64,000 nt of DNA, taken from NCBI GenBank assembly GCA_026692665.1, contig JAPLOF010000063.1:62001-126000 (forward strand), in the 5' to 3' direction. The position numbers were made by a program, and so were the translations under genes. Numbering within the stretch: the first letter of the stretch is position 1; every line of letters starts with the position of its first letter. The stretch comes from Planctomycetota bacterium. GTDB lineage: Bacteria; Planctomycetota; UBA1135; GCA-002686595. Below are positions 46,909-54,524 of this stretch, one piece after another. The notes beneath the pieces were generated by a model. It was not told the DNA's origin, did not search any database, and was given only the letters and a program-made list of their open reading frames with translations.

Positions 46909-47712
46909 ATGCCGCGGATCTACGTGTTGTCCGGCCCCGACCTCGGGCGCAACTTCGACGTGCGGGCGGGCGCGACGTTCGGGCGCACGGCCGAGTGTCA
47001 GGTGACGCTGCGCGATCCTTCGGTCAGCCGGGTTCACGCGCGGCTCGAGGAGGCTGCGACCGGCTGGCGCGTCGTCGACACCGGGTCGCGGAACGGACTC
47101 TTCGTGCGCGACGAGCGCGTGCCCGCGGCGGAGATCGAGGACGGGGACGAGTTCCGCCTGGGCGAGGTGCTCCTGCGCTTCCGTGCCGATGCGCCGAGCG
47201 CGAAGCCGGCAGGATCCGCGCCGGAGCCCGCGCCGGTGGCGGCACCCGAGATCCAGTTCCACGCGCGCGGAGCCTCGCGTGCCGCTCCCGCGGAGGAACC
47301 GGCGGACATCGAGTTGGAAGGGGACTGGTCCGAGCCCGTCGCCGCGCCCCAACCGGCGGCACGTCCGCGCGCGCCGGAGGGGATCGGGCACGTCGCGGCT
47401 GGCGCTCCCACCGCGACCCCGCGCTCCGTCGCGAACGACCAGCGGGCGAGGAAGCTCGCCGCGGCCGGCGTCGCGCCGACCGGGCGCACGGGCGCGGCCG
47501 ATGCGCGCGGAATCTTGCAGTTCAACCGGGTCGCGCAGCAGGAGGGCCTGCTGCGGCAGGAACTCGACCAGCAGCCGACGTGGCTGCGCTTCGCCGTCGT
47601 CGGGATCGTGCTGGCCGTCGTCGCGGCTCTGGCGTGGCTCGGCTACCAGGCCGCGACCGCGACGAAGGCGCGGCTCGCGCCGTCGGAGTCCGTCGAGGAC
47701 GAGGGGCGCTGA
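46909..47712 (+). CDS. FHA-domain protein with C-terminal membrane anchor
   Basis: A 267-residue protein. Residues 1-95 are an FHA phosphothreonine-binding domain: FGRTAECQVTLRDPSVSRVHARL (seen as GRTAECQVTL and SVSRVHARL) and the SRNGLFVRDERV loop. A Pro/Ala-rich linker (about 100-180) leads to a charged region and a single membrane helix (FAVVGIVLAVVAALAWLGYQ, about 232-251), giving a cytosolic FHA tethered to the membrane. It would dock to threonine-phosphorylated partners, but no kinase gene is adjacent. The ATG chosen gives the FHA domain its first strand. Its stop is 27 bases from the stop of the convergent selenoprotein gene. Confidence 0.9.
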   Translation: MPRIYVLSGPDLGRNFDVRAGATFGRTAECQVTLRDPSVSRVHARLEEAATGWRVVDTGSRNGLFVRDERVPAAEIEDGDEFRLGEVLLRFRADAPSAKPAGSAPEPAPVAAPEIQFHARGASRAAPAEEPADIELEGDWSEPVAAPQPAARPRAPEGIGHVAAGAPTATPRSVANDQRARKLAAAGVAPTGRTGAADARGILQFNRVAQQEGLLRQELDQQPTWLRFAVVGIVLAVVAALAWLGYQAATATKARLAPSESVEDEGR

Positions 47713-47738: not shown

Positions 47739-47999
47739 CTAACCGCCGCCGGAGAGCGAGCGCTTGTGCAGCGAGTTCACGACGTCCGCCGGATCGGGCC
47801 AGCCGCCGCCGAAGAGCGACGACAGGAGTCCCTTGCTCTTCGAGGCGACGAGCTCGCCGTCGGCGAGGACGTCGAACTGACCGGTCGAACCCTTCCGGAT
47901 CTCGACGTCGAGGCCGAGATCTTCACGGATCTTCGCGGCGAGACCCGCCGCGCGACGTTCGTACCCTCAAGCCGTGCAGTAGAGGATCTGGATCTTCAT
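47739..47999 (-). CDS. selW: SelW-type (Rdx family) selenoprotein, in-frame UGA read as selenocysteine
   Basis: An 86-residue protein if TGA at 47967-47969 is read as selenocysteine at position 11. The motif is YCTAUGY, C-x2-U, the redox site of SelW/SelT/SelH (Rdx) proteins; Cys8 and Sec11 follow the first beta strand MKIQILY. The following 75 residues keep the Rdx pattern: ...GLAAKIREDLGLDVEIRKGSTGQFDVLADGELVASKS..., seen as DVEIRKGSTGQFDVLADGEL. Without recoding the gene would end after ten residues. A SECIS-like hairpin lies directly after the UGA. The frame ends at TAG 47739, convergent to the FHA gene. Function: thiol/selenol redox protein, probably cytosolic. Confidence 0.88.
47934..47952 (-). 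promoter_or_regulatory. bacterial SECIS-like hairpin after the selenocysteine UGA
   Basis: On the minus strand, 14 bases after the UGA, a perfect 7-base stem (CGCGGCG with CGCCGCG) encloses the loop GGUCU. The apical GGUCU is the same as in the E. coli fdhF SECIS element that SelB binds, where it lies at nearly the same distance from UGA (about 19-23 bases against 22-26 here). No bulged U is obvious, so it is a SECIS-like element; SelB recognition in this organism is inferred. Confidence 0.75.
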
Positions 48000-48013
48000 G
48001 GTTGCGCACCACT

Positions 48014-49102
48014 CTACCCGAGCGCGCACCAGCCCTCGCACCAGACTTGCGCGGAACGGTCCCAGGTGAAGCTCGCCGCGTGCGCCGCCGCGCGGTCGAG
48101 ATCCGCGGGCCGGGATTCCAGCGCGCGCCGGATCGCCGCCGCGCACGCGCCCGCGTCGTCGGGGTCGAAGCGCGGCGTGTCCGGGCCGGCGACCTCCGGC
48201 AGTGCGCCGGCATCGGCGATCGCGAGCGGCGCGCGCGCGCGCTGGGCCTCCAGGACCGCGATGCCGAAGCCCTCGAGTCGCGAGGGCAGGACGACGGCCG
48301 CGCAGCCGGCGAGGATCGTCGCGAGCTCTGCGTCGGCGTAGGGTCCGCGAAAACGCACGCGCGCGGACACGCCCTGTTTCGCCGCGATCCCGGCCAACCG
48401 GTCCGCTTCGTCGGCCTTGGCTGCGCCCCACAGTTCGAGCGCGGGCAAGGACGCGTCGCGCGCCAGCGCAGCGACGAGCACGTCGAGGTTCTTGCGCGGT
48501 TCGAGGTGTCCGAGGTGCACGAGCGGCGCGCCGGCGCCCGCGGCGCGCGGTCGTGGCGCGAAGTGGTCGCCGCCGTTCCCGATCACGATCGCGTCCTCGA
48601 CCCGGAGGCGCGCCGCGATCTCGCGCGCGGTCGTGTGGCTCACCGTGAAGACCCGCGCCGCGCGCCGCGCCGCGCCGCCGATCACGGAACCCGCGACGAG
48701 CCGGCGCGTCAGCGGCGCGCTCGCGAGGGACAAGGCGCGCAGATCGTGGATCGTCAGCGTGAACGGCAGGGCCAGCGAGCGCGGAACGGGGAAGTGCGCC
48801 GTGTGCACGAGGTCGAACGGCCGGCCCGCCGCGCGCGCGGACGCGATGGCGGAGCGCAGCGCATGGCCCTCCGCCGCGGCGCGCGCGATCGGCGGCCCGC
48901 CGGGCACCGTGCTCGCGAGGCGTTCGATCTCGCGCGGCAGTTCGAACTCGATCCGTTCGCGGCCCTCGAGCACCGCGAGGGAACCGCCGCGTGCCACGAG
49001 GAGGCGCGCGATGCGCGGCAGGAGCTCCGCGTTGTGTCGGCGGACTCCGCCGGCCGGTTGTCCCAGCACGACGCCGCTCACGAGCACCCGCGGCGCGCTC
49101 AC
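48014..49102 (-). CDS. glycosyltransferase, GT4-like (second of pair)
   Basis: A 362-residue GT-B glycosyltransferase. The N-terminal domain contains GGVRRHNAELL; the C-terminal domain has the family-typical segments LVHLGHLEPRKNLDVLVAAL and VLPSRLEGFGIAVLEAQRARAP, where SRLEGFG-x-VLE is the nucleotide-sugar binding E-x7-E motif. It transfers a sugar to a growing glycan or lipid in the cytosol. The GTG start overlaps the stop of the upstream glycosyltransferase (GTGA), so both are coupled. Donor and acceptor are unknown. Confidence 0.9.
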   Translation of the reverse strand: MSAPRVLVSGVVLGQPAGGVRRHNAELLPRIARLLVARGGSLAVLEGRERIEFELPREIERLASTVPGGPPIARAAAEGHALRSAIASARAAGRPFDLVHTAHFPVPRSLALPFTLTIHDLRALSLASAPLTRRLVAGSVIGGAARRAARVFTVSHTTAREIAARLRVEDAIVIGNGGDHFAPRPRAAGAGAPLVHLGHLEPRKNLDVLVAALARDASLPALELWGAAKADEADRLAGIAAKQGVSARVRFRGPYADAELATILAGCAAVVLPSRLEGFGIAVLEAQRARAPLAIADAGALPEVAGPDTPRFDPDDAGACAAAIRRALESRPADLDRAAAHAASFTWDRSAQVWCEGWCALG

Positions 49103-50109
49103 GCGAGGAGCTCCGACCACGCGGCCTCGACCAGCGCCGCGCTGCGATCCCAGGTGAACTCCGCCGCGCGCGCGACGCGTGACTCGCGATCGCGGTCCGT
49201 GCTCGCGAGAGCGCGCGCGAGGCCGTGGGCCACGGAGTCGGCATGGTCGGGATCGACGGGAATTCCCGCCGTTCCCGTCACTTCGGCCTGCGCGCTGCCG
49301 CGCGTCACGAGGACGGAGACGCCCGCCGCGCAGGCTTCGAGCGCGGGCAGTCCGAAGCCCTCGGATCGAGAAAGGACAGCGACGGCGGTCGCGTGCCGGT
49401 AGAGCACCGCGAGCTCGGCGTCGGACACCTCGCCCGTGAAGGAAACGCCGCCCGCGCTCACCACGGACGGATCCAGCGGGCCAGTGACGACGACGGCCAG
49501 GCTTGGACCGCCGCAGCGCGCGAGCTCGATCGCGCCGTGCAAGGCCGCGTCGGAGCGCTTCTTGGCGCGCCCTCCGCCCGGGCACAGGACGTACGCGCCC
49601 CTTCGGAGCCCGCGTCGCGCGAGCACATCCTGGTCCTCCGCCTCCGCCGACGCGCTGAATGCGGAGTCGAGTCCCCACGGCACCACGCGCACGCGCCGGG
49701 CGTCGACGCCGGAGTAGGCGCGGACGTCGCGCGCGGTGGACTCCGTCGCCGTCAGCACGAGGTCCGCGCGCCGCGGACCGAGGCGCGCCCACAATCTGTG
49801 CCGCCAACCCGCGTTCTCGACGACCCCGTGCAACCAGGGCAGCTCGTGGATCGTCTGCACGCGCTTTCCGGCGCCGCGCAGCGGGAACGCGGACAGGCAG
49901 GAGTGGATGCCGGCGAGACCGAGGCGCGACTCCGCGCGCGGCAGCTCGACCTGGCGCCAGTGCGCGGAGTGCGCGCCGGGTTCCGGCGCGAGGCGCGCGA
50001 CCTCGAGCTTCCCGCGCCGCTCGAGCGCCTCGACGAGCCCCGCGACGACGCGCACGACGCCGCGCGGGTGCGGGCGGTGGAGCGGAGAGACGTCGAAGCC
50101 CACGCGCAT
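49099..50109 (-). CDS. glycosyltransferase, GT4-like (first of pair)
   Basis: A 336-residue GT-B enzyme. MRVGFDVSPLHRPHPRGVVRVVAGL forms the N-terminal acceptor fold start, shown by GVVRVVAGLVEAL. The C-terminal half holds YVLCPGGGRAKKRSDAAL (donor phosphate loop) and SRSEGFGLPALEACAAG (E-x7-E motif). It works in the cytosol on a glycan intermediate. Start at MRVGFDV matches the family's first strand and not the upstream in-frame shadow. The gene is divergent from the GT-C-like membrane protein gene, separated by 49 bases, suggesting a shared glycan pathway. Specificity unknown. Confidence 0.9.
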   Translation of the reverse strand: MRVGFDVSPLHRPHPRGVVRVVAGLVEALERRGKLEVARLAPEPGAHSAHWRQVELPRAESRLGLAGIHSCLSAFPLRGAGKRVQTIHELPWLHGVVENAGWRHRLWARLGPRRADLVLTATESTARDVRAYSGVDARRVRVVPWGLDSAFSASAEAEDQDVLARRGLRRGAYVLCPGGGRAKKRSDAALHGAIELARCGGPSLAVVVTGPLDPSVVSAGGVSFTGEVSDAELAVLYRHATAVAVLSRSEGFGLPALEACAAGVSVLVTRGSAQAEVTGTAGIPVDPDHADSVAHGLARALASTDRDRESRVARAAEFTWDRSAALVEAAWSELLA

Positions 50110-52027: not shown

Positions 52028-52518
52028 GCACGCGCTCCGTCATCGGCCTGGTCGCGATCACGGCGGCTGCTGGTCTGCTCACGGGCTGCGTGATGTTCCA
52101 GTTCGAGCGCGACATCATCGAGCGCCGGCCGGAGGCCGAAATCGTGTCGAGCTTCACCATCGGCAGCACGCATCTCGGCGACGTCCTGGACGTCATGGGC
52201 GCGCCGACCGAAGTGTGGGAGGGCGCGGACGGCGGCGCCGCGCTGGCCTACGGCGGCCTGCGTTCCCGCGGCTGGAACGTGGACGTGAGCGTGCCGGTCG
52301 CCGACGCCGGGTCCGCCAACCTCTCCTACACGGACACCACGGCGCGCACGGAGGGATTCATGCTGCTCTTCGGCCCCGAAGGTCACCTCGAGATCGTGCG
52401 CGCGGGCAACCTCGCGGACCTGCGTCGGACGTACGCGCGCCGCCGACCGGCGTCGCTCCAGGACGAGCCTGCGGCCGGTGAGAAGGCGCCGGGCGGAAAA
52501 CCGGCCGGAGCGCCATGA
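52024..52518 (+). CDS. small BamE/SmpA-like lipoprotein (second)
   Basis: A 164-residue lipoprotein starting at TTG, overlapping the previous stop. The signal ends AAAGLLTGC (lipobox). The core SFTIGSTHLGDVLDVMGAPTEVWEG repeats the G-x-(S/T)-x4-DV-x3-(L/M)GAPTEV pattern of the first lipoprotein, so the two are tandem paralogues. Beta strands (GGLRSRGWNVDVSVPVADAG) follow, and the C-terminus is Pro/Ala/Lys-rich. Its stop overlaps the ATG of the molybdopterin oxidoreductase. Function unknown; an outer-membrane assembly or lipid role is only inference. Confidence 0.7.
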   Translation: MSTRSVIGLVAITAAAGLLTGCVMFQFERDIIERRPEAEIVSSFTIGSTHLGDVLDVMGAPTEVWEGADGGAALAYGGLRSRGWNVDVSVPVADAGSANLSYTDTTARTEGFMLLFGPEGHLEIVRAGNLADLRRTYARRRPASLQDEPAAGEKAPGGKPAGAP

Positions 52519-54524
52519 CCGGGGCGGGCGAGGGCGCGGTCCACCGCACGACTTGTCCGCTCGACTGCCCGGACGCCTGCGGCGTGCTCGTCGAGACGGA
52601 TGCGGCCGGCGCGTTCGCGAGCTTGCGCGGCGATCCCTCCCACCCGTGGTCGCGCGGCGTCCTGTGCGGCAAGACGGCCCTGTACGGCGAGGTCGTGCGC
52701 GCGCCGAATCGCCTGCTCCACCCGCTCGTGCGGCGGCACGGGGAGCTCGTGCGCGCGTCCTGGGACACGGCGCTCGACCTCGTCGCGGAAAAGGTCGGGC
52801 CGCTCGCCGGGCGCGACGTCCTGGCGCTCTCGTACGGCGGATCCATGGGGCTCGTGCAGCGCAAGTTCCCGAACCGCGTGATGAACGCGCTGGGCGCGAC
52901 GCACCACGACGGCGGCATCTGCGACGCGACGGCGGACGCCGGCTACCAGAGCGTGCTCGGCCGCTGTCTCGGCCCCGACATGGACGACGTCGATGGCTGC
53001 GACCTCCTGTGTCTTTGGGGCTGCGACATGGCGCGCACCGTGCAGCACCTGCAGCCGCGCGCCAAGCGCCTGCAGGAGCGCGGCGTGCCCGTCGTCGTGA
53101 TCGACGTCTGGCGCACGGACACGGCGCGCGACGTCGAGCGCCGCGGCGGACGTGCGTTCGTGATCCGGCCCGGGACGGACGCGGCGCTGGCGCTGTGTCT
53201 CGCCCGGCTGGCGTTCGAGCGCGGCGCCGTGGATCGCGCCTACCTCGCCGCCCAATGCGTGGGCGCGGACGAGTTCGAACGCCACGTGCGCGGCGCGCAC
53301 GACGTGGCGTGGGCCGCGCGGATCACGGGTCTCGCGGTGGACGAGATCGAACAATTGGCTGCCCTCCTCTTCCGCTCGCGGAAGCCGTTCGTGAAGACCG
53401 GCGTGGGTTGGACGCGTCGGCGGAACGGCGGGAACTCGATGCGTGCGGTCTGCGCACTCGCCGCGATCCTCGGCCACGGCGACCGTGTGCACTTCGAGAG
53501 CTACGCGCATTTCGGCCTGGCCGAGGAAGTCGTGCACCGTCCGGACCTGCGGCCGATGGGGGCGCCGACGGAGGAGGTGAGCCAGGTCGGGCTCGGGAAG
53601 ATCCTCGAAGAGGGCCGGTTCCGCGCCGTGTTCGTGTGGTGCCACGACCCGGCGGTCACGATCCCCGACAGCGCGCGTTTTCGCCGTGGATTCGCGCGCG
53701 ACGATCTCTTCACGGTCGTCCACGACCATTTCCTGACCGAGACGGCGGCGCTGGCGGACGTGGTGCTGCCCGCGACGACGTTCGTCGAGCACGCCGACGT
53801 CTACCGCAGCTACGGTCACCGCTGCGTGCAGCGCGCACGGGCCATCGCGAAGGCGCCGGGCGAGGCGCGCTCGAACGTGGACACCTTCGCTGGCCTCGCG
53901 AAGCGTCTCGGGCTGCCGCGCGCGACGTGGGACGTCAGCGCCGATTCGCTGTGCGACGAGTTGCTCGCCGCCTCGCGTTCACGCTTCACCGACGACGAGT
54001 TCGCGCGCATCGCGTGCGGCGAGCCGGTGAAGCTCGCGCCCCGCGCTTTCGGCGGGTGGGGCACCCCGAGCGGCCGCATCGAACTCGCGAGCAGTGCTCT
54101 CGAGCGCGCCGGCTCGATGCGCCTGCCGACGTACGTGCCCGAGGATCTGCGCGGCGAGCCCGGCGAGTTCGAGCTGATCTGCTCGCCGTCCGTGCACACG
54201 CACAATGCGACGTTCTCGCACAGCGGCCGCCACGCGCAGAAAGCCGGCGCGCCGCGCGCATTCCTCCACCCGCGAGACCTGGCGCGCCTGGGCCTTGCGG
54301 CCGGGGGCCGAGTTCGGCTCGCGAACCGCCGTGCCACGGTCACGCTGGCCGTCGCCCCGGACGACGGCGTGCCGCAGGGCCGGGTGCGCGTCGACGGCCT
54401 GCCGCGGGGCGCGGACGTGCCGGAAGGGCACGGCGTCAACGCGCTCGTCGCCGGGGACGTCAGCGACATCGGCGGGGGAAACGTCCTGTACAGCACGCGC
54501 TGCGACCTGTCCGCGGCCGATTGA
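52515..54524 (+). CDS. molybdopterin oxidoreductase (DMSO reductase family)
   Basis: A 669-residue enzyme of the DMSO reductase superfamily. The N-terminal [4Fe-4S] motif is CPLDCPDAC (Cys14, 18, 22) with the last ligand in VLCGK (Cys51). The molybdopterin-binding fold is visible in ALSYGGSMGLVQRKFPNRVM, DGGICDATADAGYQ (region that carries the Mo ligand) and WGCDMARTVQHLQPRAK. The C-terminal cofactor domain includes SVHTHNATFSHSGRHAQ. No Tat signal or membrane partner gene is nearby, so a soluble formate- or thiosulfate-type oxidoreductase in the cytosol is possible; substrate unknown. Coupled by ATGA to the lipoprotein before it. Confidence 0.9.
   Translation: MTGAGEGAVHRTTCPLDCPDACGVLVETDAAGAFASLRGDPSHPWSRGVLCGKTALYGEVVRAPNRLLHPLVRRHGELVRASWDTALDLVAEKVGPLAGRDVLALSYGGSMGLVQRKFPNRVMNALGATHHDGGICDATADAGYQSVLGRCLGPDMDDVDGCDLLCLWGCDMARTVQHLQPRAKRLQERGVPVVVIDVWRTDTARDVERRGGRAFVIRPGTDAALALCLARLAFERGAVDRAYLAAQCVGADEFERHVRGAHDVAWAARITGLAVDEIEQLAALLFRSRKPFVKTGVGWTRRRNGGNSMRAVCALAAILGHGDRVHFESYAHFGLAEEVVHRPDLRPMGAPTEEVSQVGLGKILEEGRFRAVFVWCHDPAVTIPDSARFRRGFARDDLFTVVHDHFLTETAALADVVLPATTFVEHADVYRSYGHRCVQRARAIAKAPGEARSNVDTFAGLAKRLGLPRATWDVSADSLCDELLAASRSRFTDDEFARIACGEPVKLAPRAFGGWGTPSGRIELASSALERAGSMRLPTYVPEDLRGEPGEFELICSPSVHTHNATFSHSGRHAQKAGAPRAFLHPRDLARLGLAAGGRVRLANRRATVTLAVAPDDGVPQGRVRVDGLPRGADVPEGHGVNALVAGDVSDIGGGNVLYSTRCDLSAAD

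Follow-up and report, generated by a model that had tools for sequence, protein, structure and literature searches.

A hairpin with a GGUCU loop as a probable SECIS element in a SelW-like gene of a planctomycete

A compact hairpin within the coding sequence of a SelW-like (Rdx) gene is, on comparative sequence evidence, very probably a bacterial SECIS element, and the UGA at codon 11 of this gene would then be read as selenocysteine. The gene is encoded on the minus strand of the window, the stretch of 64,000 nucleotides of a Planctomycetota MAG (4.58-Mb draft genome) that was analysed here. The initial annotation had already taken the hairpin as support for selenocysteine recoding, a reading now sustained by the loops of all 148 UGA-bearing loci compared, by covariation of the stem, by loss of the hairpin in natural Cys forms and by the selenocysteine machinery of the host. 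Both the type of signal and the protein family are already known, SelW-like proteins being an established family of bacterial selenoproteins (PMC1088965, PMC1794560, PMC13188914), and the element adds one member. As far as sequence can settle the matter, both Rdx genes of the host are selenoprotein genes, which ordinary annotation would truncate or miss.

A divergent SelW-like protein with a predicted CTAU active site

The Rdx gene (positions 47739–47999, minus strand, ATG at 47999, stop codon included) encodes 86 residues with a thioredoxin-like fold and matches Pfam PF10262 (Rdx) with 45.9 bits, above the cut-off of 22.6. The match contains a single internal TGA (47967–47969), which is codon 11. 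Translated with UGA as U, the product is MKIQILYCTAUGYERRAAGLAAKIREDLGLDVEIRKGSTGQFDVLADGELVASKSKGLLSSLFGGGWPDPADVVNSLHKRSLSGGG, with the active site CTAU, and thus combines an Rdx domain with a CxxU motif. In alignments the UGA takes the position of the second Cys in CxxC relatives and of the Cys in solved SelW/MIEN1 relatives. The AlphaFold model of the protein (25 orthologues, pLDDT 87.3) displays the β-α-β-β-β-α arrangement of the thioredoxin-like SelW fold; its best matches in the PDB are SelW-related proteins (TM about 0.70–0.76), with MIEN1 and mouse SelW next. By sequence the nearest solved relative is MIEN1/C17orf37 (2ljk), and by fold the bacterial SelW-related proteins. Fold and CxxU motif together suggest a redox function.

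Bacterial SelW-like selenoproteins with a CxxU motif were described in a survey of the Sargasso Sea (PMC1088965), and few or no Cys homologues are reported for SelW-like proteins in Sec-using organisms (PMC1794560). The window protein shares with these PF10262 selenoproteins the fold, the CxxU motif, a similar size and a bacterial SECIS, but is a divergent paralogue (38 bits, where the second Rdx gene of the host scores 74) that carries the insertion GLLSSLFGGGWP. Its fold is also common to the Cys-containing bacterial Rdx proteins 2fa8, 2ojl, 3dex, 2oka, 2obk and 2p0g. These have a catalytic Cys where the window protein would have Sec, 3dex showing CxxC at the position aligned to CTAU.

Upstream of the Rdx gene lies a glycosyltransferase gene (48014–49080, minus strand, 5′ end approximate), whose stop codon precedes the Rdx ATG by 14 nt, a gap from which the two genes are probably co-transcribed. 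The order glycosyltransferase, Rdx selenoprotein and convergent FHA-domain gene (47739–49807 and 46909–47712) is also found at loci L062 and L067, in two other genomes. Elsewhere in the window, a molybdopterin oxidoreductase-like ORF of 669 residues (52515–54524, plus strand) with TTCPLDCPDACG near its start belongs, judged by eye, to the formate-dehydrogenase superfamily; it is open throughout, with no internal UGA.

Geometry of the hairpin and likeness to known SECIS elements

Read on the minus strand, the RNA proceeds from the UGA through a 14-nt spacer, GGGUACGAACGUCG (47953–47966), to the 5′ arm CGCGGCG (47946–47952), the apical loop GGUCU (47941–47945) and the 3′ arm CGCCGCG (47934–47940), so that the perfect 7-bp stem and the GGUCU loop 14 nt past the UGA, as first annotated, are exact. 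The 23-nt element on its own is predicted to fold into this hairpin (−14.4 kcal/mol, z −2.8). The folding energy of a 45-nt context is ordinary (z −0.06) because the DNA is 71% GC; at this composition the z-score is uninformative, and it was excluded from the evidence. An Rfam scan of the hairpin region gave no match at E values up to 1.

The element agrees with the bSECIS model (PMC13188914) in each of its terms of position, structure and energy. The model has a loop of 3–9 nt, an upper stem of 4–16 bp, a minimum free energy of −7.5 kcal/mol or lower, a G within the first two loop positions (mostly G[G/U]) and a distance of 16–37 nt from UGA to loop; the window hairpin has a 5-nt loop, a stem of 7 bp, the predicted energy given above, the loop GGUCU and, within the coding sequence, a distance of 21 nt made up of the spacer and the 7-nt arm. 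Its likeness to the SECIS element of Escherichia coli fdhF is closest in the loop. Both elements follow the Sec UGA closely on its 3′ side, within the coding sequence, and both have the loop GGUCU, an identity noted at the outset and confirmed for fdhF in E. coli genomes. The essential fdhF loop bases G23 and U24, singled out in a review (PMC8659212), correspond to positions 2–3 of the Rdx loop. The two differ in that fdhF has an 11-nt spacer, 3 nt shorter than that of the window element, and a required bulged U17, whereas the window stem of 7 bp is uninterrupted; the window element also shows no evidence of a longer lower stem and belongs to a different protein family. A strict fdhF-type definition, with an 11-nt spacer and a bulged U17, therefore does not describe it, and the proposed fdhF-like distance holds as to placement just 3′ of the UGA but not as to spacer length.

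How unusual such a hairpin is depends on how strictly it is defined. The 7-bp Watson–Crick stem with a GGTCT loop occurs once in the window when both strands are scanned, and Markov-simulated windows contain a mean of 0 to 0.05 such hairpins, none of them near a TGA. However, a generic bSECIS-like hairpin with G in the loop lies 3′ of 26% of all TGA triplets in the window, which leaves the exact loop and the comparative data as the only evidence of weight. A hairpin after UGA, taken generically, was accordingly dropped as evidence, and the early statement that the agreement is unlikely by chance is valid for the exact hairpin but not for looser ones. An argument from the single sequence would be weak; the comparative evidence decides.

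Conservation, covariation and natural Cys forms

Of the 154 genomes searched in the class, 122 have Rdx genes, almost all of which contain a single internal TGA. These genes are of two paralogous kinds, a short one to which the host locus L001 belongs and the kind found in the window, for which the class has about 22 orthologues. In all, 148 UGA-bearing loci with one UGA each were extracted, ten of them from a search of named genomes that reached Myxococcales and Thermoleophilia; some are duplicate contigs, leaving 138 distinct sequences. The hairpin is present at every one of the 148 loci, and 147 keep at least five of the six inner pairs. Orthologues that keep the UGA while losing the stem or the loop, which had been named as the finding that would speak against recoding, were thus not encountered within the class. 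The loop is GGUCU at 88 loci, AGUCU at 30, AGUUU at 22, AGUUA at five and CGUGC or CGUGU at three; it is always NGU, with GU fixed at positions 2–3 in 148/148. The spacer measures 14 nt at 143 loci, and 17 nt, with one extra codon, at the other five.

These counts bear on the reading in which the UGA is a true stop, or arose by sequencing or assembly error within a pseudogene, with the hairpin a product of chance in GC-rich coding sequence. The frequency of generic G-loop hairpins after TGA triplets and the near-zero folding z of the 45-nt context are what such a reading could call upon, and it is nonetheless extremely improbable. UGA, spacing and loop recur at more than 140 loci from independent assemblies, conservation of the reading frame extends to where the Rdx domain normally ends, the two arms of the stem covary, the hairpin is gone from Cys forms and the Sec machinery is complete; conservation of UGA and hairpin across the class already refutes it.

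Stem covariation was measured on 133 distinct sequences, with shuffled alignments and slid positions as controls. Pairing is found in 93.4% of stem cells (78.0% shuffled) and double changes number 112 (27.0 shuffled). Compensatory change is strong in these relatives, with a covariation score of 0.395 against 0.122 for shuffles and 0.014–0.089 for slid controls. Relatedness is not preserved by the shuffles but is preserved by the slid controls, which fail clearly. Window-type sequences taken alone (n = 24) are 97.6% paired and score 0.272 versus 0.086. Since the stem pairing falls within coding sequence, the residues around the loop are coupled, as in A-GL-A, T-GL-V, V-GL-T, S-SL-E and S-GL-G.

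The element is wholly coding and overlaps a well conserved helix (helix 1), and it could be asked whether conservation of the protein (A-G/S-L-A) alone keeps loop and stem in place, with no function of the RNA. This explanation is very unlikely. At all 148 loci the codon in the loop is GGT, AGT or CGT, so that its third base is T whether it encodes Gly, Ser or Arg, whereas T is rare elsewhere: GGT makes up 118 of 984 glycine codons (12%) in the remainder of these genes. Compensatory changes in the stem swap amino acids in pairs, and in Cys homologues of this fold the place is taken by other residues (ANAL, AAWL) and the loop is absent.

None of six natural Cys-bearing Rdx homologues has an NGU loop, and their broken stems retain at most four of six inner pairs. 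The short paralogue of genus g17 carries Cys (TGC) where Sec would be; its loop region encodes N-A-L with no GU loop, and at most two of six inner pairs are left. Three Cys forms sit in genomes of this genus whose window-type paralogue retains both UGA and hairpin, and three more Cys homologues elsewhere in the phylum are likewise devoid of the hairpin.

Among 29 further UGA-bearing loci of the phylum, 25 have [A/G]GU loops and 27 keep five to six inner pairs. A few UGA-bearing Rdx genes outside the class have the loops AGCCU, AGGAU or AGGUU (L213, L219, L214, L227); in these genes the stem may be shifted, or the SelB may have different preferences. Two further Rdx paralogues (L199, L200) have Gly at the Sec/Cys position (CEVGNY and CELGNY) and apparently lack a second redox residue.

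Selenocysteine machinery and wider distribution

The host genome contains selA, selB, selC and selD, that is, the full apparatus: SelA (471 bits), a full-length SelB (335 bits, parts joined), a tRNA-Sec with anticodon TCA (73.9 bits) and SelD (318 bits), which has a UGA of its own in NCAGUAAK. On the other objection named at the outset, a host SelB that recognises a different motif, sequence goes as far as an alignment of the last winged-helix domains of this SelB with the RNA-binding domains in the Moorella and E. coli proteins (1wsu, 2pjp). Of the 154 genomes of the class, 139 have SelB and 138 have tRNA-Sec. In the proposed mechanism, SelB carrying Sec-tRNA(Sec) and GTP would use its C-terminal winged-helix domains to bind the stem-loop in the mRNA, mainly by the GU of the loop; with the codon-11 UGA in the ribosomal A site, it would deliver selenocysteine where a release factor would otherwise terminate. 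The predicted product is an 86-residue redox protein of thioredoxin fold with a C-x-x-U active site.

In-frame UGA codons in two Rdx genes and in selD might alternatively reflect a genome-wide change of code, with UGA specifying another amino acid such as Trp and no need for a SECIS. The chance of this is minimal, given a dedicated tRNA-Sec with SelA, SelB and SelD, and ordinary nearby genes that end in TGA, for example the FHA gene (47710–47712). In the genes examined the UGA lies at the catalytic Cys position, and a non-systematic inspection saw no UGA at unrelated conserved Trp positions.

The second Rdx gene of the host (paralogue L001, G000:C22), which has a UGA and a GGUCU hairpin at identical spacing, also supports the SECIS reading. 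The loop-closing pair differs between the two paralogues, being C-G in L001 and G-C in the window gene. A covariance model of the element, run over the 4.58 Mb of the host genome, finds only these two Rdx genes. Among weaker hits (E 0.06 and above), a few have some open frame over a nearby TGA and none a recognisable Cys/Sec motif, and they were rejected as not selenoprotein-like. The host selD gene (L176, G000:C48:668–1612, minus strand) has a different hairpin after its UGA, without a GGUCU loop, suggesting that the GGUCU type is probably not the sole form of SECIS in this genome. Because of this selD hairpin and the loop variants found outside the class, GGUCU is probably not the only loop that the host SelB accepts.

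UGA-encoded SelW-like proteins are widespread in Planctomycetota, a phylum that the reviews consulted do not mention for this family, and a search of the literature on Planctomycetota selenoproteins returned, by title or abstract, no paper about the selenoprotein genes of the phylum. The alignment of roughly 150 members provides clean, natural data on SECIS covariation: the GU bases of the SelB loop stay fixed, and compensatory changes let the stem drift and alter the protein sequence with it. It makes the recognition rules of SelB outside E. coli directly testable.

Three Rdx genes (L082:3015; L084, minus strand, offset 315; L151:318) contain two in-frame TGAs nine bases apart, which converts CxxU to UxxU, with the usual hairpin placed 14 nt after the second TGA (loop GGUCA in L151). 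In the review catalogues consulted, UxxU is given for Prx-like proteins, and SelW-like proteins appear with CxxU only. We tentatively consider that, in part of the planctomycete lineage, one compact GU-loop SECIS might serve two UGAs and give rise to an Rdx protein with a U-x-x-U diselenide site, a possibility to which we give somewhat less than even weight.
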